Source of the DNA: Natronobacterium texcoconense
Lineage (GTDB): Archaea; Halobacteriota; Halobacteria; Halobacteriales; Natrialbaceae
Length of the DNA stretch: 64,000 bases
Direction of reading: 5' to 3'
Assembly: GCF_900104065.1 (NCBI RefSeq)
Contig: NZ_FNLC01000001.1
Span: 744,001-808,000, forward strand
Shown here: positions 8,675 to 63,863 of the stretch, in pieces
How the letters are laid out: every line of letters begins with the position of its first letter
How positions within the stretch are numbered: position 1 is the stretch's first letter
Notes under the pieces: model-generated
What the model was told of the DNA's origin: nothing
The model's database searches: none
What the model saw: only the letters and a program-made list of their open reading frames with translations
Position numbers and translations under genes: made by a program

Positions 8675-9085
8675 TCAGGCCGTCGCCTCGAGGTTCTCGT
8701 ACTCCGCGATCCGTTCGCGAACCTCGTCCGAGAGCGGCTCCGGCTGTCCCTCCGAATTCGTCTGGACCATGACGGTTTCGGCGGTCGCGGCGATTTCGCC
8801 GTCGGCAGTGCGAATTTCGTACTCGATCGTGCAACTGGTCGTTCCCAGGTCGGTCACCCAGAGCGTGACAGTGGGTTCGTCACCCCGCGTGAGTGGTCGT
8901 TTGTAGGAAATCTCGAGGTTCACGATGACGAAACCGGCGTCCTGCTGGCGAATCTCCATGACCTCGTCGATGTAATCGATTCGTGCGGCTTCGATGTAGC
9001 TCGCGTAGACAGCGTGGTTGACGTGATCCATCGGGTCGAGGTCGCGAAACCGGACGGGGATCTCGGTGGTGAACTTCTCATTCAT
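8675..9085 (-). CDS. Acyl-CoA thioesterase (4HBT hotdog fold)
   Basis: This 136-residue single-domain hotdog protein contains the 4-hydroxybenzoyl-CoA thioesterase signature FRDLDPMDHVNHAVYASYIEAARI (the aspartate of the DLDPMDHVNH stretch is the likely catalytic residue) and the second-half pattern EISYKRPLTRGDEPTV. It hydrolyses an acyl-CoA thioester, substrate unknown. It lies on the minus strand, just downstream of the repeat, and is convergent with the methyltransferase. Confidence 0.88.
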   Translation of the reverse strand: MNEKFTTEIPVRFRDLDPMDHVNHAVYASYIEAARIDYIDEVMEIRQQDAGFVIVNLEISYKRPLTRGDEPTVTLWVTDLGTTSCTIEYEIRTADGEIAATAETVMVQTNSEGQPEPLSDEVRERIAEYENLEATA

Positions 9086-9146
9086 TGTTCATTGTCGAAA
9101 CGGAGCGGGCTAAAGAGCCCACCGGTTCGGGCAACGTTCGAGCCGG

Positions 9147-9914
9147 TCACTGCTGGCTGTACAGTCGGGCGTGTTCGTCGCAGAACACAGGGTCGCGTAG
9201 CTGGGCCTCGATCAGGTCCTCGTGATAGTGAGCGTTGTAGAGCCGACACGCTTCGCGGTCACAGAAGGCCTCGCCCGTCTCGAGGTAGTGGTAGGCCTGC
9301 AGGACGTAGCCTTTCAGGGCGTCGGTCGTCCGCGGATCGTCCTCGACCAGGAAGTCGCCCTCGACCTGATTCTCGAGGACCTCTCGCGGCGGTGCGTCGC
9401 CCGAGAGCAGGGCGTGGCGCTGCTTTTCCTTGTAGTACTCCTCAGGTTTGGCCGGTGCCTCGTAGAGGCCGGGCACCGATACCAGCGCGGGCTGACCCAG
9501 TACGTTCACGCGCTTGTGCCAGCGGCCATCGTGGTCGCCCCAGGTACCGATCGCTCGATCCAGCAGTGGGACGTGAAGTTTCTCGAGACCGCGTTCCTCG
9601 TCCGGCAAGGCGCTGTTCAACGCTCGCTGGACCTGAAGCCCGTCGTAGAGGACGCCACCCTCGCGGTCGGGGTTCTCGAGCGCGCGTTCCTCGTATCGGA
9701 TCGTTCCGAGCATCGTGTTCCCCGTTTCGCGGTCGTACGGCGAGGTGACGCGGGCCTCGGCGAACCGTTCGGGGAGGTCGTCCGTTCGGTGTACCTCGAG
9801 AAACCGGTCTTGGACGGACACCGTGGCGTCGACGCGGCCCTCGAGCCAGTCGGCGAGTTCGTCGGTGTCGACGGGGGTCGTCGGCGCCCGGTAGAGCGTA
9901 ACTCGATCGACCAT
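9147..9914 (-). CDS. Conserved haloarchaeal protein, possible metallopeptidase (DUF6775-like)
   Basis: This 255-residue soluble protein starts MVDRVTLYRAPTTPVD. I recognise it only as a conserved archaeal family; the pattern resembles DUF6775 putative metallopeptidases. Possible metal ligands are a C-terminal CDREACRLYNAHYHEDLIEAQ stretch and PVFCDEHARLY, giving clustered Cys and His residues (about 219-250). It contains GVLYDGLQVQRALN and a RHALLSGDAPP segment. It lies between the thioesterase and the flippase on the same strand. Confidence 0.55.
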   Translation of the reverse strand: MVDRVTLYRAPTTPVDTDELADWLEGRVDATVSVQDRFLEVHRTDDLPERFAEARVTSPYDRETGNTMLGTIRYEERALENPDREGGVLYDGLQVQRALNSALPDEERGLEKLHVPLLDRAIGTWGDHDGRWHKRVNVLGQPALVSVPGLYEAPAKPEEYYKEKQRHALLSGDAPPREVLENQVEGDFLVEDDPRTTDALKGYVLQAYHYLETGEAFCDREACRLYNAHYHEDLIEAQLRDPVFCDEHARLYSQQ

Positions 9915-50449: not shown

Positions 50450-50946
50450 CGTCCACGCCTCGTCGTCTGATCACTTTTCGCCGTCGTTTTCCGCTGTAGT
50501 GGCGACGCCGACGGCCGAGTCGGTTCGATACTTGCTCGAGTAGCACGGGCCGACGACCGATTCCCCGACGACGGTTCCGCGACCGAACGCGTTCCCCCCG
50601 ACTCCGTCGGAACTTCTTTCCTCGAAGTTCGTGGGCCCACTCGTCTCCGATTCACCGCCTTGTCTCCTCGTCACACGAAAGAACATGTTCGGAGAAGGGA
50701 ATACCGGCGTGGCGGAGCGAATCCTATTCATGAACCTGCCTGTGACTTCCGCCGAACACACCCGAGAGCAGTCCGAATGGGTCGATCTTCGGACTGTCCT
50801 CCTTCTCGGCCCGTCCGCTCGTGGATCGGAGACGGCGACTCGCATCCCACGCTCGAGTCCACCGAGACCATGATTCGGTCGATCGATACGGCCGACGCAA
50901 CGCTCGCTTCCCACCGACGGCACAGCCGTCACTTACCTGTTCACCC
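50450..50946. other. Gene-free interval upstream of the heme synthase fusion
   Basis: This 497-bp gap contains only weak ORFs in both strands, rich in Arg and Pro or lacking family features. No repeat family, tRNA or clear promoter was recognised, though the ctaA/ctaB promoter must lie in it. The sequence is of normal G+C and gives no sign of transfer. Confidence 0.35.
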
Positions 50947-52404
50947 ATGACATCCACCACTACCCGAACTCGGTTCACGTCCCTCCTGATAGCGACGACG
51001 ATCGCAACGTACGTCCTCATCGTCCTCGGCACGGCGGTGTCGACCACTGGCAGTGCAGATACCTGTGCGACCTGGCCGAGTTGTTCGACCGAGTGGGCCA
51101 TCGGACCGATAACCAGCGACGGGCTCCTCTTCTGGGGTCACCGCGCCGTCGCCCTCGTCACCGGACTCCTCCTCGCGGGGGCGGCCTACACCGCCTCGAA
51201 AATCGACCTCGATCGAGCGACACGGGCGGGGCTCGCGTTCGCTTGCGTCCTCTTTCCCGTCCAGGTCGGCGTCGGAGCCGCCCTCGTCGTTCGCGAGTCG
51301 GCGCTCGTCGGCGCAGCGCACCTCCTGCTCGCGATGGTGATCTTCGGTGGCCTGCTCGTCGCGCTCGTGCGCACGCTCGAGATTCATTCCGAGTCGACGG
51401 CCGGAACGCCCGCGAGTACCGTCGACGCGAGATCGATCGAGCCGGCGCCGGACGACTCGTCCGATCCCGACCCGGTCGCGGCCACAGACGGCGGAGGCGA
51501 GAACGCGTCCTCGAGCGGCCGACTGGCAGAACTCCGCAAAACCGTCGGTGCCTACGTCACCCTCACCAAACCGAAGCTGATGTGGCTGCTGTGTCTCGTC
51601 GCGCTCGCGGGGATGGGACTCGCGACGCTTACCGGGGCGACGCTCGAGCCGGCTGTCGTCGCAGCGACGCTGCTCGGTGGTGTTCTCGCGATCGGTGCCA
51701 GCGGGACGTTCAACCACGTCCACGAACGCGACCGCGACCGAAAGATGCAGCGGACGTCCGATCGGCCGCTCGTTCACGATCGCGTTCCGGTGGCGAACGC
51801 GATCTGTTTCGGCGTGGTACTCACCGTCACGTCCGCGCTCGTGATGCTCGTCTGGGTGAACCTCCTTGCGACGCTGCTCACGCTCGCGGCAATCGGCTAC
51901 TACGTCGTCCTCTATACGGTGCTGTTGAAACCCAATACGGCGTGGAACACCGTTCTCGGCGGTGGCGCCGGTGCACTGCCGGCGCTGATCGGCTGGGTCG
52001 CGGTCACTGGCAGCGTGGATCTCCCGGCGCTGGTCCTCGCAGCGGTGATCTTCCTGTGGACGCCCGCACACTTCTACAGTCTCGCGATCGCTTACCGTGA
52101 GGACTACGCGAAGGGTGGGTTCCCGATGTTCCCCGTCGTCGCGGGCGATCTGGTCGCTCGGCGTCACATCATGCTGTATCTTGGTGCGACGCTTCTGGCC
52201 GTGAGCCTGCTTGGATGGATCGCGGGACTCGGCTGGCTCTACGCGTTGACTTCGATCGCGCTCGGGACAGTCTTCCTGCGTTCGGTCGTCCGACAGTACC
52301 ACGACCCGACGAAGGAAGTCGCCCTTCGCTCGTTTTACGTCTCGAACTACTATCTGGGAGCGATCCTGATCGCGATTATCGTCGAGACGTTGCTACTCGC
52401 GTGA
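50947..52404 (+). CDS. ctaB: Half-CtaA/CtaB fusion, heme O/A synthesis
   Basis: The 485-residue protein joins two enzymes. Residues 1-145 are a four-helix half of heme A synthase (CtaA/COX15): a CATWPSC pair (Cys40, Cys46), heme-ligand histidines in FWGHRAVALVTG (His65) and GAAHLLLAMVIF (His125). A polar linker (146-195) precedes CtaB (protoheme IX farnesyltransferase, heme O synthase): TLTKPKLMWLL, the prenyl-diphosphate-binding NHVHERDRDRKM (Asp-rich), and YREDYAKGGFPM. Halves of CtaA are known in archaea; fusion to CtaB is unusual. It supplies heme for the heme-copper enzyme 5 kb downstream. Confidence 0.87.
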   Translation: MTSTTTRTRFTSLLIATTIATYVLIVLGTAVSTTGSADTCATWPSCSTEWAIGPITSDGLLFWGHRAVALVTGLLLAGAAYTASKIDLDRATRAGLAFACVLFPVQVGVGAALVVRESALVGAAHLLLAMVIFGGLLVALVRTLEIHSESTAGTPASTVDARSIEPAPDDSSDPDPVAATDGGGENASSSGRLAELRKTVGAYVTLTKPKLMWLLCLVALAGMGLATLTGATLEPAVVAATLLGGVLAIGASGTFNHVHERDRDRKMQRTSDRPLVHDRVPVANAICFGVVLTVTSALVMLVWVNLLATLLTLAAIGYYVVLYTVLLKPNTAWNTVLGGGAGALPALIGWVAVTGSVDLPALVLAAVIFLWTPAHFYSLAIAYREDYAKGGFPMFPVVAGDLVARRHIMLYLGATLLAVSLLGWIAGLGWLYALTSIALGTVFLRSVVRQYHDPTKEVALRSFYVSNYYLGAILIAIIVETLLLA

Positions 52405-52694: not shown

Positions 52695-53804
52695 ATGAGC
52701 CCGACCGATCACAACAAACGACGACGACGGTTCCTGCAAACGGTGGGCGTGGCTGGTGCAGCCGCTCTCGCCGGTTGTTTCGGAGACAGTGGCACAGACG
52801 CCGACGATTCGGGAAGCAACGGTAACAGTAACAGCAACGGTAACGTCGAACTGCCGCCGCCGGAAGAGCCAGAGGTCGATACGATCGCTGCCGATCCGAC
52901 GGACGTTCCGGATCCGGTCGACTGGGATTCGCCGCGGACTCACGAGATCCGGATCCAGACCGAAGAGTACGTCGCCGAAATCGAGCCGGGTGTCACGACT
53001 CGGTTCATGACCTTCGAGGGACAGGTCCCCGGTCCGATGTACCGAGTGCGGGTCGGCGACACTGTCCGCCTGACGTTCGACGTCCCCGAAGACCTGAACC
53101 GGGACGTTCACAACATCGACTTCCACGCGGTGTACGGACCCGGTGGGGGTGCCGTCGACACGACGATCGCTCCCGGCGAAGGCGAAGAAACGATCGAATT
53201 CCAGGCGACGTACCCCGGTGCACACATCTACCACTGTGCGCCCGGTAACCACGACCAGCACATCAGTCTCGGCATGTTCGGGACGATCCTGGTCGAACCC
53301 GAAGACGGACTCCCCGAAGTCGATCGGGAGTTCTACATCGGCCAGCACGAGCTGTACCTCGAGGGCGAGACCGGACAGGAAGGTCACCACGCCTTCGACT
53401 TCGACGAGGCCGCCTCGGAGGACCCGACGTACGTCCTCTTCAACGGCGAGGTCGGCCGGTTCACCGAGGACGGTGCGGCTGGCCCGCTGCACGCCGAGGT
53501 CGGCGAGACGGTCCGGGTGTTCTGGTGTAACGGTGGGCCGAACCTGACCAGCGGTCCACACCCGATCGGCAACGTCTGGACCGAGTGGTACCGCGACGGT
53601 GACGTCCTCTCCGACCCCGCCCAGTACGTCGAAGGGACGGCACAGGCGGCCGGTACCACGGCCTTCGGGACGATGGACATGGAAGTCCCCGGCCCGATCT
53701 TCCTGGTCGACCACGCACTCAGCCGAGTCAACCGGAAGGGGCTGATGGCGACGATCAACGTCGAAGGCGAAGAAGACCCCGACATCTACAACCCCGATCC
53801 GTAG
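52695..53804 (+). CDS. nirK: Copper-containing nitrite reductase NirK
   Basis: NirK reduces nitrite to nitric oxide outside the cell. The 369-residue protein has a Tat-type signal (KRRRRFLQT) and lipobox LAGC (Cys28), then two cupredoxin domains. Type 1 copper ligands are His139 (VHN), Cys181 (YHCAPG), His189 and Met194 (GMFG). Type 2 ligands include His144 (DFHAVYG), His180 and His340 (VDHAL), with Asp142 as the conserved catalytic residue and His289 in SGPHPIG as the second catalytic His. The Cys-to-His spacing is 7 residues. It starts the copper block 52695-59369. Confidence 0.94.
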   Translation: MSPTDHNKRRRRFLQTVGVAGAAALAGCFGDSGTDADDSGSNGNSNSNGNVELPPPEEPEVDTIAADPTDVPDPVDWDSPRTHEIRIQTEEYVAEIEPGVTTRFMTFEGQVPGPMYRVRVGDTVRLTFDVPEDLNRDVHNIDFHAVYGPGGGAVDTTIAPGEGEETIEFQATYPGAHIYHCAPGNHDQHISLGMFGTILVEPEDGLPEVDREFYIGQHELYLEGETGQEGHHAFDFDEAASEDPTYVLFNGEVGRFTEDGAAGPLHAEVGETVRVFWCNGGPNLTSGPHPIGNVWTEWYRDGDVLSDPAQYVEGTAQAAGTTAFGTMDMEVPGPIFLVDHALSRVNRKGLMATINVEGEEDPDIYNPDP

Positions 53805-53873
53805 TACTGCCCCAGCCGATTGAATCGCCGGCGAGACCCGAGCGAAAACCGTTCCATTACCATTTCCCCATTC

Positions 53874-54443
53874 ATGAACGACCTCACACGGAGAAACGCG
53901 ATCAAACTGGGCGCAGCCAGTGGCATCGCTGCAATCGCCGGCTGTCTGTCGGATCGCTTCGGGGATACCGGGACGTCCGGGGACGGAGACGGAACCATCG
54001 GCAATCCAGCCGACGAAGTCGTGGTCGACGTCGTCTCGACGCCCAATCCCGCGTTCGAATCACGACTCGTTCACGTCAATCCGGGAGGAACTGTCACGTG
54101 GGACGTCAAGGGTCACCGTCACACCGTCACTGCGTATCATCCCGATACGTACGGCCCACAGCGAATCCCCGACGGCGCGGAGCCGTGGGGAAGTGGAACC
54201 CTCAGCGGAAACCGCGACTTCGAGTGGACGTTCGAACAGGAGGGGATCTACGACTACACCGACACCCGGACTCTCTGTGCCACCCACGAATCCCTCGGTG
54301 CGGTCGGCCGCGTCGTCGTCGGCTGGCCGGACCTCGAGGGACAACCGGCTACCGAACACGACGACCTGGAACTGCCCGGTCGAGCCTCGACGGTCATCCA
54401 GGAGATCGACAACGAAATGCGCGCGGTACTGACCGAAGAGTAG
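53874..54443 (+). CDS. Halocyanin-like lipoprotein, axial Met replaced
   Basis: This 189-residue exported protein has a Tat-like signal (TRRNAIKLG) and lipobox IAGC (Cys24). The cupredoxin region carries His83 (GHRHTVT), Cys135 and His138 (LCATHESLG); the position of the normal axial methionine (GM.G in relatives) is Ala143 (LGAVG). Copper could still bind with three ligands, but the potential or stability would differ, or the protein might be a copper carrier. Placement right after nirK suggests it donates electrons to NirK or supplies copper. Confidence 0.82.
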   Translation: MNDLTRRNAIKLGAASGIAAIAGCLSDRFGDTGTSGDGDGTIGNPADEVVVDVVSTPNPAFESRLVHVNPGGTVTWDVKGHRHTVTAYHPDTYGPQRIPDGAEPWGSGTLSGNRDFEWTFEQEGIYDYTDTRTLCATHESLGAVGRVVVGWPDLEGQPATEHDDLELPGRASTVIQEIDNEMRAVLTEE

Positions 54444-54704
54444 CGCAGTCTCGGCATCGTCGCAGGGTCGTCGTACTCGTTTTCGTCCGTCGTTCTTCAC
54501 CTATACAGTACGAATTCGTACGGGGATCGTCGTCATTTCGTCCGAACGCCGTGAACCGACTCTCCGTTCGGGTTTCGCCGCCAGTCCGTTCGAGATTCGA
54601 ACCAGTACTTAAGTGCCGCACAGCAGATGTTCGGGTGGGTTCCTGCCCCTCGAGAACCACGATCGCTCTTTAGCCGATGGTATGGCTATCTCTACGTAGA
54701 GACC

Positions 54705-55538
54705 ATGAACTCCTTCGATCGACTCGGCCGACGGACGTATCTGGCTGCGACCGGGTCGGCAGTGGTGGGACTCACTGCCGGCTGTACGGACCTGGTATCG
54801 GACCAGCAGTACGACCGGGTCGTCCTTGAGCCACCCGAAAACTACGACGCCCTTCGCGACTCGCGGGACCGCGGTGAGCTTCCGCACCCGATATACGGCG
54901 ACGAACTGCCGGACGTGAGCGCGCCGTGTACGATCCGCGACGAGGAGATCGCGACGGGCGATTTCGAGGGTGAACGCCACTCGCTATACACGTTCATCTT
55001 CGCACGCTGTCACGGCGCGTGTCCGGCGCTGACGTCGTCGCTCAGACACGTGCAGGCTGATTCCGCCGACAACGACTACGCCGACGACGTCGCGCTGGTA
55101 CACGTCACCTTCGACCCCGAACACGACACGCCAGAGGTGCTCGAGGAGTACGGCCACGACCACGGCGTGAACTACGACCTGAACAACTGGTACGACCTCC
55201 GACCGGAGAGCGAAGCGGCGGCCCAGGAGTACGTCATGGACGAGTTCGGGTGCTTCTACATGCGAAACGAGGATTTCGAAGCGGACGACGGCCACGGCGA
55301 CGGCCACGAGAACGATCACGACGACGACGGCCACGATGAACACGACGACCACGACGACGAACCACCCGAACCCGACGAACTCGACGACGAGAGCGAGATG
55401 GAGATGGCGTTCCAGCACGAGTCGATGATCGTCCTGGCCAACGCCGACGGCTACGTCGAACGCACCTACACCGGTGACGGACTCCCATCGTACAGTGACC
55501 TCATAGACGACGTTCGAACGGTCGCCGAGGAGTGGTAA
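54705..55538 (+). CDS. SCO1/SenC copper chaperone with His/Asp-rich insertion
   Basis: SCO proteins insert copper into the CuA site of oxidase subunit II. This 277-residue lipoprotein (signal plus LTAGC, Cys27) has the CxxxC motif FARCHGACPAL (Cys102, Cys106) and the third copper ligand His238 (QHESMIVL). Between the two lies an insertion (residues about 193-230) of Asp, Glu and His including six His residues, absent from normal SCO1 proteins. It may buffer copper. The stop is followed after 2 nt by the thioredoxin-like gene; together they form an assembly operon for the heme-copper enzyme. Confidence 0.88.
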   Translation: MNSFDRLGRRTYLAATGSAVVGLTAGCTDLVSDQQYDRVVLEPPENYDALRDSRDRGELPHPIYGDELPDVSAPCTIRDEEIATGDFEGERHSLYTFIFARCHGACPALTSSLRHVQADSADNDYADDVALVHVTFDPEHDTPEVLEEYGHDHGVNYDLNNWYDLRPESEAAAQEYVMDEFGCFYMRNEDFEADDGHGDGHENDHDDDGHDEHDDHDDEPPEPDELDDESEMEMAFQHESMIVLANADGYVERTYTGDGLPSYSDLIDDVRTVAEEW

Positions 55539-55540
55539 CC

Positions 55541-56077
55541 ATGCGTCGCAGAGAGGTACTGGTCGGTGCGGCCGCAGCAGCCGTTGCAGGCGCCGGTGCA
55601 GCCGTAACGCTCGGCGACTGGGATCCTCTCGAGGACGGCGACGGCGTTCCGGAGTTCGAACTCGAGGGGATCGATGCACCAGGAAGCAACGCGGGAACGG
55701 TCGTCGTCCCGGAGCGAGGGACGGTGACGTTCCTCGAGGTGTTCACGACCCCGTGTGGCGTCTGTTCGGACATGATGGCGCCGCTGGGGGAGGTGTACGA
55801 CGACGTCGGCGACGAGGTGCAGTTCGTCTCGGTGACGAACGAACCGCTCGGTCGGACGACGACCGCCGACGACGTCGCCGACTGGTGGGCAGACCACGAC
55901 GGCCGCTGGCAGGTCGCCCACGACGACGACCTCGAGTTTACCAGGGAACTCGATGCGACGGGAACGCCGTACAGCCTCGTGTTAAACGAGGAAAACGCCG
56001 TCATCTGGTCGGACAGGGGATTCAAGACCGCAGACGAACTTCGCGAACAGATCGAAACCGCTCTCGGAAGTGAGTGA
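55541..56077 (+). CDS. Exported thioredoxin-like protein (TlpA-type)
   Basis: This 178-residue protein has an N-terminal Tat/Sec signal (RRREVLVGAAAAAVAG) and a thioredoxin fold with the CGVC motif TTPCGVCSDMM (Cys72, Cys75) and TGTPYSLVL containing the cis-proline. TlpA-like reductants keep the SCO and CuA cysteines reduced. It sits between sco and ccdA and overlaps the latter by 4 nt (GTGA), so electrons probably pass CcdA to this protein to SCO or CuA. Confidence 0.88.
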   Translation: MRRREVLVGAAAAAVAGAGAAVTLGDWDPLEDGDGVPEFELEGIDAPGSNAGTVVVPERGTVTFLEVFTTPCGVCSDMMAPLGEVYDDVGDEVQFVSVTNEPLGRTTTADDVADWWADHDGRWQVAHDDDLEFTRELDATGTPYSLVLNEENAVIWSDRGFKTADELREQIETALGSE

Positions 56078-56736
56078 CCGTGCCTCTGGGTGAACTGGTC
56101 GGAATGGTCCTGTTCGCACTCGGGTCGGGAGTGGCAACCTTCTTCGCGCCGTGTTCGTACGCGTTGCTTCCCGGCTACGTCGGCTACTACGTCGCGGCGA
56201 CCGGTCAGGAACGGGCACCGCTGGGTGGTGCTGCCGTTCGTGGTGGTGCCGCTGCTATCGGCGCACTCGCCGTCTTCGTGGTACTTTCGGTACTTGCGGT
56301 CGTCGCGGGCGAGGTACTCGAGCGAACGCTTCCGGTTCTCGAGGTCGGCGTCGGCGTCGCACTCGTCGTCCTCGGTGCGTGGATCCTGTACGCCGGCAGC
56401 GGTGCGGTACACGTAATGTTGCCCGAACGTCGAGCGACGGTCTCTGGCTTCACGGTCTTCGGCGGGATGTACGCGCTCGCGGCGACTGCCTGCGTGTTGC
56501 CGCTGTTCCTGGCGGTCGCGTTCCAGTCGCTGACGCTCTCGACGACGGAGACGGCGCTGGTACTTGGTTCGTACGCCGGCGGGTTCGCGGTGCTCATGCT
56601 GTCGGTTACGGTTGCGATCGCGGTCGGACACAACCTGGGCGCTGGTCGCATCGCCCCTCGGTCGGACTGGCTGATCAAGCTCGCAGGTGGCGTGATCGTG
56701 CTCGCCGGATTCGGGCAACTCTACGTGGCGCTCTGA
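56074..56736 (+). CDS. CcdA/DsbD-like transmembrane thiol transporter
   Basis: This 220-residue membrane protein with six predicted helices carries reducing equivalents from cytoplasmic thioredoxin to the outside. The two conserved half-sites are FFAPCSYALLPGY (Cys27) and AATACVLPLF (Cys140), forming the CcdA redox pair. The GTG start at 56074 overlaps the stop of the thioredoxin-like gene. It completes the thiol pathway serving the copper proteins of this block. Confidence 0.9.
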   Translation: MTVPLGELVGMVLFALGSGVATFFAPCSYALLPGYVGYYVAATGQERAPLGGAAVRGGAAAIGALAVFVVLSVLAVVAGEVLERTLPVLEVGVGVALVVLGAWILYAGSGAVHVMLPERRATVSGFTVFGGMYALAATACVLPLFLAVAFQSLTLSTTETALVLGSYAGGFAVLMLSVTVAIAVGHNLGAGRIAPRSDWLIKLAGGVIVLAGFGQLYVAL

Positions 56737-56811: not shown

Positions 56812-56832
56812 ACTACTATAATATATTATTTT
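56812..56832 (+). promoter_or_regulatory. AT-rich promoter of the CuA/heme-copper operon
   Basis: The run ACTATAATATATTATTTTTG contains ATAATATATTAT, a 12-bp palindrome, in otherwise G+C-rich DNA. It lies about 100 nt before the small membrane protein start. It could be a TATA box plus activator site for the operon 56932-59369. Confidence 0.5.
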
Positions 56833-56931
56833 TGATTCCAGATACGGTTCCCATGTACTGCATTTCTGTCCGAATATGTACGGCAACGTTACCATAGACC
56901 CCCGGTTACAATCGTCGGATGGAGAAGTGCT

Positions 56932-57084: not shown

Positions 57085-57630
57085 ATGACGTCACCAATCA
57101 AACCGCCGGAAGGAAACTGGTGGGATCAACCCGTCAACAGACGTGAAACGATCTGGCTCGGCCTCTGTACCGGGTGGGCGTTCGTCCTCTTCGGCTGGAT
57201 GAGCGCGTTCACCCGGGTCGGTGACCAGAACCCGATCGGGGAATCCTACAAGGTCGAAAGCGAGGAGTATCGCGAGAAAGTGCAGGCCTACATCGAGGAG
57301 GCCGAAGAGACCGACGACGGAATCGTCCCACCTGGGGACGACGTCTACATCGGCGCGTACTCCTTCAGCTGGGACGGACTCCCGGTCGTGCTCGAGGCCG
57401 GCCGCGAGTACAACATCCACCTCGGCTCCTACGACGTCCAGCACGGCTTCTCGATTCGGCCGGAGGAGACGCTGAGCCAGCAGATCAACCTGCAGATGCT
57501 CCCGGGCTACGAGTGGATCGTTCCCATGGAGTTCGAGGAGCCGGGGACCTACCGCGTGCTCTGTAACGAGTTCTGTGGAAACGGCCACGAAACGATGCAC
57601 GGGAGACTGATCGTGGAGGAACCAGAATGA
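57085..57630 (+). CDS. coxB: Subunit II with CuA site (CoxB-like)
   Basis: This 181-residue subunit II has one N-terminal helix (IWLGLCTGWAFVLFGWM) and an outer cupredoxin domain. The CuA ligands are His120 (VQHGF), Cys160, Cys164, His168 and Met171 in CNEFCGNGHETM. Such a site accepts electrons from halocyanin or cytochrome c. It overlaps subunit I by 4 nt. In this context it may serve a nitric oxide reductase, since CuA subunits occur in CuA-NOR enzymes as well as oxygen reductases. Confidence 0.93.
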   Translation: MTSPIKPPEGNWWDQPVNRRETIWLGLCTGWAFVLFGWMSAFTRVGDQNPIGESYKVESEEYREKVQAYIEEAEETDDGIVPPGDDVYIGAYSFSWDGLPVVLEAGREYNIHLGSYDVQHGFSIRPEETLSQQINLQMLPGYEWIVPMEFEEPGTYRVLCNEFCGNGHETMHGRLIVEEPE

Positions 57631-59369
57631 CGCACAAGTACGACGTGCTGGGGCTGTTCGACAACGAGTACGACGAGGACGGGTTCCGGACCTGTTCGGT
57701 GACCGGCCTCGACGTCCATCGGTCGGTCGAGAACCACGTGAAGGCGTTCGGCCTCACGGCGATCGTCTTCATGATCGTCGGCGGGTTCTTCGCGATTACC
57801 GTCGCGTTGACCCGCTGGGAGACGATCGGTCTGCTCGACGCGTCCGACTACTACATCCACCTCAGCATGCACGCCTGGAGCATGCTGCTTTTCTGGATCG
57901 TCTTCATGGAGGTGGCGATCCTCTACGTCGGTGGTCCGATGGTACTGGGCCGTCGGTTGCCGCTGACTGCAGTGGCGAAAGCCGGTTACGCACTCATGCT
58001 CGCCGGCGCCGTAGCGGTGTACTACTCCATCTGGACGACCTCCGCACCCGACCAGGCGCCGCTGCTGACGGCGTACGTGCCGCTCCCGTCGTCACCGGCG
58101 TTCTACGCGAGCGCGCTCTTGTTCGTCATCGGCGTCGTCGTCGCGGCACTCCCGTTCTTCGTCTCTCTTTGGCGCGAGAAGCGCCAGAACCCGGGACAGA
58201 CACTCCCGCTCGTGACGTTCGGGGCCTTTATCACCTCGATCATCGCTGTCGAGGCACTGCTCGGCGGGGCCGTCGCGTTCGGTAGCGCCCTGCTGTGGCG
58301 ACTCGAGATCGTTACGACCCTCGACGCCGGCTGGTACCGGATGTGGTTCTGGATCATCGGCCACGGGACCCAGCAGATCAACCTCGTGGCGATGATCACC
58401 GTCTGGTACTTCCTGACCCACGTCGTGGGTGGTGCCGAGGTCGTCAGCGAGAAGGTCTCGCGGACGGCGTTTATCCTCTATCTCTTCTTCATCAACATGG
58501 GTGCGGCCCACCACCTGCTGGTCGACCCAGGTATCTCGACCGGCTGGCGGATCTGGAACACCTCGTATGCGTTCTACGGGGCGACGCTGGCCAGCCTGAT
58601 TCACGCCTTCGCTATCCCGGCGGGGATCGAGGCCGGTCGCCGCAAGCGCGGGAAAGGCGGTGGTCTCTTCGGCTGGCTCACCTCTGCACCGTGGAAGAAT
58701 CCGGTGTTCGCCGCACCCGTGCTCGCGATCATCCTCTTCGGATTCCTCGGCGGCATCACGGGCGTGCTCATGGGTCAGCTCCAGCTCAACATGAGCTGGC
58801 ACAACACGTTCGCGACCGTCGGTCACTTCCACAGCACCGTCGTGCTCGGCACGACGATCACGTTCATGGGCCTGGTCTACTTCGTGATCCGGACCATGTT
58901 CATGCGGAAGTTCATCTCCTCGAAACTGGCCTCTGCCCAGCCGTTCCTCTACGGCGGCGCGATGGGGCTGACGGCGCTGATGATGATGTACGTCGGCATC
59001 CTCTACGGCGTCCCACGACGGACGCCCGAGGTCGTCGAGAACATCCCTGGCACCGAGTTCAGCCTCCAGGCTGCTGCGCCACTGTTCAACGTGTTCGGGG
59101 TCGTTGCCCTGATCGCGATCCTCGGCGGCGCGCTGTTCGTTGCGCTGGCCGTCCTCTCCGTGCTGTTCGGTGAGCGGATCGAGCCGGGCGACAACCAGGA
59201 TCTCGTCGCCGACGGCGGACTGGCGATGGCCGAAGATCCCGAAGACCCAGTTCACGCCTACGAGATGCGTGGCTCGTTCGTTCTCTGTCTGATCTTCTTC
59301 GCCGCGTTCGTCATCACCTACGTGCTGAACTGGTATCTGCTCACGCAGCTGTGGTCGATCGGCGCCTGA
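57627..59369 (+). CDS. Heme-copper oxidase subunit I, probable CuA-type nitric oxide reductase
   Basis: This 580-residue, roughly 13-helix subunit I has the heme ligands His82, His400 and His402 (GHFHSTV) and the copper-site pair His295-His296 (GAAHHLL). The remaining active-site His246 lies in IIGHGTQQINL. Oxygen reductases of A and B families have HPxxY there, with Tyr cross-linked to the His; here the Tyr position is Gln250. Absence of this Tyr is characteristic of NO-reducing members such as CuA-NOR. Tyr285 on the next helix could substitute as in cbb3, so oxygen reduction is not excluded. nirK lies 4 kb upstream. Confidence 0.85.
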   Translation: MTHKYDVLGLFDNEYDEDGFRTCSVTGLDVHRSVENHVKAFGLTAIVFMIVGGFFAITVALTRWETIGLLDASDYYIHLSMHAWSMLLFWIVFMEVAILYVGGPMVLGRRLPLTAVAKAGYALMLAGAVAVYYSIWTTSAPDQAPLLTAYVPLPSSPAFYASALLFVIGVVVAALPFFVSLWREKRQNPGQTLPLVTFGAFITSIIAVEALLGGAVAFGSALLWRLEIVTTLDAGWYRMWFWIIGHGTQQINLVAMITVWYFLTHVVGGAEVVSEKVSRTAFILYLFFINMGAAHHLLVDPGISTGWRIWNTSYAFYGATLASLIHAFAIPAGIEAGRRKRGKGGGLFGWLTSAPWKNPVFAAPVLAIILFGFLGGITGVLMGQLQLNMSWHNTFATVGHFHSTVVLGTTITFMGLVYFVIRTMFMRKFISSKLASAQPFLYGGAMGLTALMMMYVGILYGVPRRTPEVVENIPGTEFSLQAAAPLFNVFGVVALIAILGGALFVALAVLSVLFGERIEPGDNQDLVADGGLAMAEDPEDPVHAYEMRGSFVLCLIFFAAFVITYVLNWYLLTQLWSIGA

Positions 59370-61388: not shown

Positions 61389-63863
61389 TCACCGATCGCG
61401 AAGCACAGATCGCCGCGAGTTCGAGACGACGATGATGCTGCTTGTCGCCATCGCGATCGCTGCGAACAGTGGGTTGATCATCCCGACTGCGGCGAGGGGA
61501 ATTGCGATCGCGTTGTACAGCAGCGCCCAGCAGACGTTCTCGCGGATCCGGCGCCGGGTGCCCGCCGCCAGGTCGAAGACGGTGCCGACGTCCCGCAGGT
61601 CGCTGCTCGTGACGATCGCGTCGGCGGCGTCGGCCGCCTGTGCGGTGCCGTTCCCGAGTGCAATGCCGAGGTCGGCCGCGGCCAGGGCGGGCGCGTCGTT
61701 GGTCCCGTCGCCGACCATCGTCGTCACGCCCTCCGCCGAAAGCCGACGCACCGTCTCGACTTTCCCGTCCGGCGGCACGCCTGCAAACACCCGGTCGATC
61801 GCGGGGTGTTTTCGGAACGTCTCGGCTGCAGTCTCGTCGTCGCCGGTGAGGACGATCCGTTCGCGCCCCTCGAGCGCCGACAGCGCCTCTTCCCACTCCT
61901 GGCGTTCGCGGTCACCGACGACGGCGACCGCTCTCGCTTCGCCGTCGTAGCCGATTACGACCGGGAGGTGGCCGTCCGCCTGAGCGTCGTCGACGGCCGA
62001 CCGCAGTTCGGACGGAACCGGGCCGACGAGTCGCTCGACGAGGTCGGGGGTGCCGACCACGACGCGGTCGCCGTCCACGACGCCGCTGACACCCTCACCG
62101 GGGTGGCGTTCGAACTCGGTTGCATCGACGGGAATCGACGCGTCGCCGGCCGACGGACGCTCCTCGGCGGGTTCCTCTCGCTCGAGCAGTTCACTGCTGG
62201 CGGCGCGAGACTGGACCGTTCCACCGTCCGCGACGGCGGCTTTATCGCCCGAATCGCGTACGTAGTCGGTGATCGCCGACGCAGCCGGGTGTTCGGAGTA
62301 CTGTTCGACCGCCGCGGCGCGCTCGATCGCTTCCCCGTCGCCGGTCACCGAGACGACCTCCATATCGCCCGAGGTGAGCGTCCCGGTTTTGTCGAACACG
62401 AGCGTCTCGACCGACGGAGCCGACTCGAACAGTGCCGCGTTCGTGACGACGATCCCGCGCTCGAGTGCATCTCGCAATCCGCCGGCGATCGCGAGCGGCG
62501 TCGCCAGCCCCATCGCACACGGACAGGAGACGACGAGAACCGTGAGACCGGTGAGCAACGCGTCCGCCGGGGCTGTGCCGGTCGCGAGCCGGTACCCAGT
62601 TACGACCGTCGCCAGGACGATCACCAGCGGGACGAAGATCGTCGCGAGTTTGTCGGCGAACCGCTGAATCCCCGGCGACTCGCTCTGTATCTCCCAGAGC
62701 AAGGTCGCGATACGGTCGATCGTACTCTCCGCGTCCTCGCCGACCTCGACCACGAGCGCACTGTCGGTGACGACCGAGCCGCCGATCACGTCGTCGCCTT
62801 CCTCCCGCGTCACCGGCAGCGACTCACCGGTCAGGACCGACTCGTCGACGGCTGCAGCGCCGTCGACGACCGTTCCGTCGATCGGGACGCGTTCGCCCGG
62901 CCGGACGATCACCTCGTCGCCGGGCTCGAGTTCCTCGAGACCGACCGTCTCGGTGCCGTCGGCCGTTCGTCGGGTCGCCTCGCGGGACCGGGCTGCGGTC
63001 AGGTCGGAGACGAGGCTGGTCGCCCGGCGTTTGATCCGACGTTCGTAGTAGGTGCCGAGGCTGACGACCATGATGACGGCGACGGTGACGTCGTAGTAGA
63101 GGTGGGTGCTCCCGGTCGCCAGCGCGACGGTACTGTACGCGTAGGCTGCCACGGCCGCGAGCGAGACCAGCAAGTCCATGTTCGGCTGGCCGACCCGGAG
63201 ACTGACGTAGGCTCCCCTGAGGACGGGATAGCCCGTGTAGAACAGGACGATCGTCGTCATCAGGCCGAGGATCGTCATCGGAAGGAACACGCCCACCTGG
63301 CTCGTCGCGTCGACGTCTAAGATCCCGGTCTCGATCCCGACGTAGCTGGGATAGAGGTAGACTAGATACCACGGCATGATCAGCATGCTGAAGAAGCCAC
63401 CGACCACCAGCCGCGTGGCCAGGTCGTGGTCGCGTCGCCGCGAGATTCCGTCGTCGTCCTCGTCCCTGAAGTACGTCGTGTAGCCGTACCCCGAGAGTCG
63501 CTCCGGAAGTTCCTCGAGTGTCACCTCGTCGGGATCGTAGACGACGCGAGCGGTGTCGGTCGCGTAACTCGCTTCGACCGCATGAATTCCCGCCTCCTCC
63601 TCGCCGAGAATCGAGAGGAACCCCTCGCAGGTCGAACAGTGCATCCCCTCGACGCCGAGAAACACCTCCTCGGCGCCGTCCGGGACGGATCGACTCGTCT
63701 CCTCGCCTGCACGTCGCTCGAGGTCGTCCCGATCCACGCCGTCGATCCCCTCGAGGGCCTCGTGGACCTCCAGACAGCCGCGACAGCAGAAGGTCCCGTC
63801 GACGGCGGCATCCGTTACCGGGGGGTCCGGCGTCGGAAGGTCGCAGAGAGAGCAGGTGGTCAT
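61389..63863 (-). CDS. Copper-transporting P1B-type ATPase (FixI/CcoI-like)
   Basis: The 824-residue P-type ATPase has an N-terminal Cys-rich zinc-ribbon-like region (CSLC, then CCRGC, residues 4-30) typical of FixI/CcoI ATPases, an HMA domain with GMHCSTC (about residues 73-79), the transmembrane metal-binding CPC in VVSCPCAMGL, the phosphorylation motif DKTGT and the hinge MVGDGTNDAP. FixI-type pumps deliver copper to heme-copper oxidases. It is 2 kb from the CuA-containing operon, on the opposite strand, which supports a role in supplying copper to it and to NirK. Confidence 0.92.
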   Translation of the reverse strand: MTTCSLCDLPTPDPPVTDAAVDGTFCCRGCLEVHEALEGIDGVDRDDLERRAGEETSRSVPDGAEEVFLGVEGMHCSTCEGFLSILGEEEAGIHAVEASYATDTARVVYDPDEVTLEELPERLSGYGYTTYFRDEDDDGISRRRDHDLATRLVVGGFFSMLIMPWYLVYLYPSYVGIETGILDVDATSQVGVFLPMTILGLMTTIVLFYTGYPVLRGAYVSLRVGQPNMDLLVSLAAVAAYAYSTVALATGSTHLYYDVTVAVIMVVSLGTYYERRIKRRATSLVSDLTAARSREATRRTADGTETVGLEELEPGDEVIVRPGERVPIDGTVVDGAAAVDESVLTGESLPVTREEGDDVIGGSVVTDSALVVEVGEDAESTIDRIATLLWEIQSESPGIQRFADKLATIFVPLVIVLATVVTGYRLATGTAPADALLTGLTVLVVSCPCAMGLATPLAIAGGLRDALERGIVVTNAALFESAPSVETLVFDKTGTLTSGDMEVVSVTGDGEAIERAAAVEQYSEHPAASAITDYVRDSGDKAAVADGGTVQSRAASSELLEREEPAEERPSAGDASIPVDATEFERHPGEGVSGVVDGDRVVVGTPDLVERLVGPVPSELRSAVDDAQADGHLPVVIGYDGEARAVAVVGDRERQEWEEALSALEGRERIVLTGDDETAAETFRKHPAIDRVFAGVPPDGKVETVRRLSAEGVTTMVGDGTNDAPALAAADLGIALGNGTAQAADAADAIVTSSDLRDVGTVFDLAAGTRRRIRENVCWALLYNAIAIPLAAVGMINPLFAAIAMATSSIIVVSNSRRSVLRDR

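Follow-up and report, generated by a model that had tools for sequence, protein, structure and literature searches.

The window analysed here is a stretch of 64,000 nucleotides from Natronobacterium texcoconense (contig NZ_FNLC01000001.1, positions 744,001 to 808,000), and it holds the genes of a heme-copper enzyme, assigned below to the eNOR family, together with NirK and a set of possible accessory genes (Table 1). The frames of subunits I and II are both intact and overlap by 4 bp. The span considered in an earlier, sequence-only reading of this DNA (57085-59369) excludes the 49-aa peptide and orf3. That reading placed a copper nitrite reductase 4 kb upstream, and the NirK gene indeed scores above the cut-off, its end lying 3.3 kb upstream of subunit II. 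Among the neighbours, the CtaA-CtaB fusion has been assigned to heme supply for the oxidoreductase, the halocyanin-like protein probably passes electrons to NirK, to the CuA subunit or to both, and the P-type ATPase possibly serves copper supply or export. The multi-helix membrane protein has no Pfam match at E<=1. The AT-rich stretch may be an archaeal promoter from which the IIa-II-I unit is transcribed independently of nirK; a scan for bacterial promoters found none, and the bacterial model does not apply to archaea.

Table 1. Genes and features at the eNOR locus, in positions of the window
Feature	Position	Strand	Evidence and remarks
COX15/CtaA - CtaB (heme o synthase) fusion	50821-52404	+	PF01040 189.9 bits, PF02628 30.1 bits; start codon uncertain
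NirK, copper nitrite reductase	52695-53804	+	TIGR02376 336.8 bits, cut-off 296.3
Halocyanin-like blue copper protein	53820-54443	+	Weak halo_cyanin / pseudoazurin matches; neighbour of NirK in related loci as well
SCO1/SenC-type copper chaperone (CuA assembly)	54627-55538	+	PF02630 49.8 bits
TlpA/ResA-like thioredoxin (thiol reduction, copper-site assembly)	55532-56077	+	PF08534 Redoxin 38.4 bits
Multi-helix membrane protein, CcdA-like by position only	56074-56736	+	Kept beside TlpA-like gene; putative function
AT-rich stretch (TATAATATATTATTTTT)	56812-56840	+	Read from sequence
One-helix peptide, 49 aa	56932-57081	+	ORF ending 3 bp before subunit II; pattern kept across loci
eNOR subunit II, 181 aa: one N-terminal helix and CuA cupredoxin domain	57085-57630	+	CoxB-like, under cut-off
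eNOR subunit I, 580 aa	57627-59369	+	COX1 family 189.5 bits, alignment, tree, AlphaFold model
orf3, haloarchaeal eNOR-linked membrane protein, 239 aa	59461-60180	+	Follows subunit I in 20/20 haloarchaeal loci
Heavy-metal (copper-type) P-type ATPase beside eNOR cluster	61389-63863	-	

By alignment, the heme ligands of subunit I are H82, H400 and H402, and the CuB ligands are H246, H295 and H296. In the helix VI motif GHGTQQ, Gln250 occupies the position of the cross-linked Tyr of oxygen reductases; the Tyr four residues past the CuB His of this helix is thus absent here, whereas all 13 B-family rows of our tree have HPxVY, HAIVY or HGIVY. The residues named in the sequence-only reading were each confirmed by residue index, both in subunit I (H246, Q249, Q250, Y285, H295, H296) and for the full CuA set of subunit II (H120, C160, C164, H168, M171). 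The motif GHxxQQxN was found in 30/30 nearest haloarchaeal homologues, in 16/16 strong matches in one bacterial order and in 9 further genomes. These 55 homologues were gathered by whole-protein or COX1-family search and not by motif, and every one has Gln at the position of Gln250. The bacterial sample obtained from a scan of 84,980 named genomes was partly gathered via the GHxxQQ motif, and its uniform Gln is therefore not independent evidence. Gln-type proteins in the alignment have Q249-Q250-x-N252, S323, H326, Y261 and the CuB and heme histidines in common, with one exception in helix X, the Thermus plasmid copy described below.

The sole Pfam match of subunit I is the general COX1 family, and its scores lie far under every cut-off of the NCBIfam oxidase models (59 bits, as against 671 for CtaD). 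It had been predicted that automatic annotation would call the protein a cytochrome oxidase, and this fits with COX1 as the sole match over cut-off and with public annotations of its relatives as 'cbb3-type oxidase'. The AlphaFold model of subunit I has a pLDDT of 85.6 and a pTM of 0.89, and the full-length identity to bacterial Gln-type enzymes is 38-43%. In subunit II, which has no NCBIfam match over cut-off and a CoxB-like score only below it, C160, C164, H168 and M171 are identical in 130/130 aligned sequences, and H120 and Glu21 in 129/129 each.

Three relatives with changes at ligand positions were seen during these searches. A Gln-type subunit I on the Thermus thermophilus plasmid NZ_AP025614.1 (L036:5983-7668) has HFK in helix X instead of HFH, so that this copy is without one His expected to bind the low-spin heme; close to it are genes for a multicopper oxidase, cytochrome P460, DUF542 and Rrf2. 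In the searched bacterial order, two divergent heme-copper relatives (L179 and L180, from G410 and G531) have YH for the HH pair of CuB, and GYFHF in helix X where others have GHFH.

The 49-aa peptide is likely the subunit IIa equivalent of eNOR. Its pattern, Q..L..N..LL followed after 3-4 positions by Y..WG, recurs directly ahead of subunit II in all 21 haloarchaeal loci. Overall, about 96/99 loci have a counterpart, a count that is approximate because it relied on a regular expression and a simple rule for ORFs. Gene position and topology are those of ba3 subunit IIa, but the PxGT/A motif described for the latter (PMC3128077) is absent here.

The product of orf3 has about three hydrophobic transmembrane helices, followed by a C-terminal domain predicted to be beta and containing Cys164 and Cys173. 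No Pfam family matches it over cut-off, no match was found in the 83 bacterial eNOR loci, and a single-sequence model (pLDDT 61, pTM 0.33) was not good enough to search for similar folds. The gene follows the enzyme closely: orf3 is present in 70 of the 71 haloarchaeal genomes with eNOR, the exception (G034) being a genome whose contig ends inside subunit I, and four genomes with two full eNOR copies have two copies of orf3 as well. Matches in haloarchaeal genomes lacking eNOR number 4/320, and these are fragments in three genomes (G036, G280, G334) and a match at noise level in G258. We take orf3 most readily for a subunit of the haloarchaeal enzyme or a factor devoted to its assembly, and the peptide and orf3 together as candidate extra subunits of eNOR.

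The fragment in G280 (L203, G280:C1, locus 8783-9357) is of a particular kind, since subunit II residues 1-73 run straight into orf3 residues 115-229 and subunit I is gone. This fusion is the scar that a deletion left when the eNOR locus was lost.

For comparison of gene neighbourhoods, 20 haloarchaeal eNOR loci, picked across genera and families, and the 83 bacterial eNOR loci were used. Within about 9 kb, the haloarchaeal loci have NirK in 8/20, a CtaB homologue in 12/20 and a P-type ATPase homologue in 15/20. CtaB-like and SCO-like genes were found in 40/83 and 38/83 bacterial loci, respectively, and NirK in just 5/83, so that linkage to NirK is mainly haloarchaeal.

Phylogenetic placement was examined with reference sequences taken from the organism's own genome, plasmid records, the scan of 84,980 named genomes and whole-genome searches. 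The tree contains 79 sequences (46 Gln-type rows, 13 B-family rows, and rows of the A and C families, among them qNOR) and was built without bNOR, sNOR, gNOR and nNOR sequences; supports are given as bootstrap/SH-aLRT. All 46 Gln-type rows, archaeal and bacterial, form one clade (100/100), in which the 15 haloarchaeal rows form one sub-clade (100/100). The B-family ba3 clade (99/97) is sister to the Gln-type clade; the A family and the C family, to which the qNOR rows are related, fall outside. A tree had been proposed as a check by the sequence-only reading, and in it the enzyme falls outside all sampled oxygen-reductase clades. Other Gln-type members come from Chloroflexota, Thermomicrobiota, Deinococcota, Gemmatimonadota, Nitrospirota, Nitrospinota, Pseudomonadota and more.

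A characterised member of eNOR is that of Rhodothermus marinus. The hallmark of the family is this very Gln, accompanied by a cupredoxin subunit II encoded directly ahead of subunit I (PMC8756737 sections 2.7.1, 3.3, Table A4), and here too a cupredoxin/CuA subunit II gene lies immediately upstream of subunit I. eNOR is one of the four biochemically characterised NOR families and is related to the B family (PMC11388526); its name dates, according to citing papers, from 2008 and was given in archaea (Hemp & Gennis 2008). Its presence in Natronomonas and throughout Halobacteria is already on record, and its misannotation as cytochrome c oxidase has been pointed out (PMC8756737). The enzyme belongs to this already named family and is not a new kind of enzyme. 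We are highly confident that the locus encodes a haloarchaeal eNOR, a heme-copper NO reductase related to the B family, whose parts beside subunit I are the CuA subunit II, the IIa-like peptide and probably orf3 as a further subunit; NO reductase function of this archaeal CuA-bearing enzyme is very probable. The earlier proposal of an archaeal, CuA-bearing heme-copper NO reductase beside NirK thus gains support from the Gln hallmark, the tree and the gene linkage.

The following working scheme can be proposed. NirK would reduce nitrite to NO outside the membrane, and halocyanin, the haloarchaeal one-electron carrier (PMC8305020), or a similar carrier would deliver electrons to CuA of subunit II. 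Subunit I would then receive them, first at its low-spin heme and next at the high-spin heme/CuB site. At this site the reaction would be 2 NO + 2 e- + 2 H+ -> N2O + H2O, and NosZ could carry N2O further. Oxygen reductases need the Tyr as a fourth electron and proton donor for O-O cleavage; with Gln250 in its place this extra donor is gone, and NO reduction does not require it. The analysis shows the sequence of the enzyme, its family, its conservation and the linkage of its genes; substrate, electron donor and proton path, like the role of orf3, are what we infer from these.

For the proton path, we take the K-channel of ba3 to consist of Glu15 (subunit II, at the channel entrance), Ser309, Thr312, Tyr248, Tyr244 and Tyr237, for which the corresponding residues here are Glu21 (subunit II), Ser323, His326, Tyr261, Ile257 and Gln250, respectively. 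Q250, N252, S323, H326 and Y261 are invariant across the 46-sequence alignment. The simplest reading is a modified K-type channel, through which protons would probably be taken from the cytoplasm via Glu21 (II), Ser323, His326 and Tyr261, ending at Gln250/Asn252. Since protons would be taken up from the cytoplasm in this way, the reaction may conserve energy. This reading agrees with the literature, in which eNOR is given one proton channel (PMC8756737).

The genome of N. texcoconense has four clear heme-copper catalytic subunits, of aa3 type, ba3 type, qNOR and eNOR. The Tyr is intact in the aa3-type (GHPEVY) and ba3-type (GHPVVY) oxidases, which are for oxygen, while the qNOR (888 aa, G000:C4:87985-90648, L004:271-2937) has Glu at the active site. 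NosZ is also present, and NarG was not found in the genome by TIGR01580. Three side observations concern the same genome. A second NirK (L207, G000:C6:101720-102655) scores 364 bits, against 337 for the copy in the window. A 456-aa multi-helix protein (L005:1351-2721, G000:C1 near 1047000) gives a weak COX1 match under cut-off. One haloarchaeal group of qNOR matches the 888-aa copy from residue 2-3, and most others match only from about 142-148, which indicates a qNOR subtype extended at the N-terminus by about 140 residues.

Surveys have held qNOR/NorZ to be the sole nor gene of haloarchaea (PMC8400030, PMC8301774). Among 391 haloarchaeal genomes we found eNOR in 71, NirK in 215 and qNOR in 206. 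NirK is present in 67/71 genomes with eNOR and in 148/320 genomes without it, an association with a Fisher p of about 2e-15 when shared ancestry is ignored. qNOR accompanies eNOR in 45 of the 71 genomes, and 25 haloarchaeal genomes have NirK and eNOR without qNOR. At the level of gene content, these counts contradict the qNOR-only surveys, and by qNOR-based criteria the 25 genomes would score as lacking NO reduction.

As to physiological role, the genome also has qNOR, and eNOR may therefore be a detoxifying or oxygen-tolerant back-up and not the main respiratory NOR. That eNOR serves mainly for NO detoxification under oxygen, and not for energy-conserving respiration, is a serious though less favoured possibility, which touches only the role of the enzyme. 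It agrees with the presence of both NORs in the 45 genomes, with hemerythrin, DUF542 and Rrf2 genes near relatives, and with the statement that eNOR works in microoxic conditions (PMC11388526), but the 25 genomes in which eNOR stands beside NirK without qNOR, and the conservation of the proton-path residues, argue against it. We lean slightly towards the view that haloarchaeal eNOR is larger than a two-subunit complex (IIa-like peptide, subunits II and I, and orf3, whose beta domain would lie outside and which comes and goes with the enzyme) and that it is the sole NO reductase in a good part of the haloarchaeal denitrifiers.

The ba3 fold, the possible K-type proton path, and the heme-o synthase and SCO genes close by, as in oxidase operons, would also suit an oxygen reductase in which the cross-linked Tyr is missing or displaced, for example to Tyr285 in the manner of cbb3. 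This we consider highly improbable. In cbb3 the cross-link Tyr sits in helix VII, six residues ahead of the CuB His pair; the residue aligned with it here is Ile289, and Tyr285 lies four residues earlier, one helical turn away. Tyr285 is moreover not a conserved catalytic Tyr, because the position has Ile in L048 and Leu in L078. A cbb3-like cross-link at Tyr285, which the sequence-only reading had named as an observation that would speak against an NO reductase, was accordingly ruled out by the alignment. The two canonical oxidases already in the genome, and the adjoining nirK, also speak against an oxygen reductase.

A CuA-NOR (bNOR) of the Bacillus azotoformans type, which the sequence-only reading named among the NO reductases without this Tyr, or likewise an sNOR, shares with the present enzyme the CuA subunit II, a small membrane peptide beside it, the loss of the Tyr and the relation to ba3 and the B family (PMC3475470), but this identity was ruled out on the diagnostic residue and the literature and is left with hardly any probability, since both B. 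azotoformans CuA-NORs (PMC3475470) and CuANor and sNOR in general (PMC8756737 Table A4) have Asn at the cross-link position where every member examined here has Gln, bNOR is known from Bacillota only (PMC11388526), and the Gln-type enzymes form a clade of their own in the tree without bNOR sequences.

An eNOR assignment places the enzyme among known systems as follows. T. thermophilus ba3 (1xme/1ehk) is the nearest solved fold to the subunit I model (TM about 0.74), and the two have in common the six heme and copper histidines, a one-helix CuA subunit II and a small IIa helix at the same gene position; they differ at the positions of Tyr237, Thr312 and Tyr244 (Gln250, His326 and Ile257 here), have only about 26% identity and belong to separate clades. 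The haloarchaeal qNOR (NorZ), of which the same genome has a copy, carries out the same reaction, but it is one fused chain with an active-site Glu and quinol as donor, is related to the C family and is very distant in the tree; the active-site Glu of qNOR and cNOR is absent in the present enzyme, which has Gln250 instead. With eNOR, reported from Natronomonas and other Halobacteria, Chloroflexi and Proteobacteria, the present enzyme shares the Gln at the cross-link Tyr position, the CuA subunit II immediately upstream and the relation to the B family, and it may share a putative K-type channel. In the published eNOR descriptions consulted, two subunits are given and the small peptide is unmentioned, and in comparison with the bacterial eNOR loci examined orf3 is an extra of the haloarchaeal members. 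The IIa-like gene and orf3 are two concrete and testable candidate additions to eNOR.
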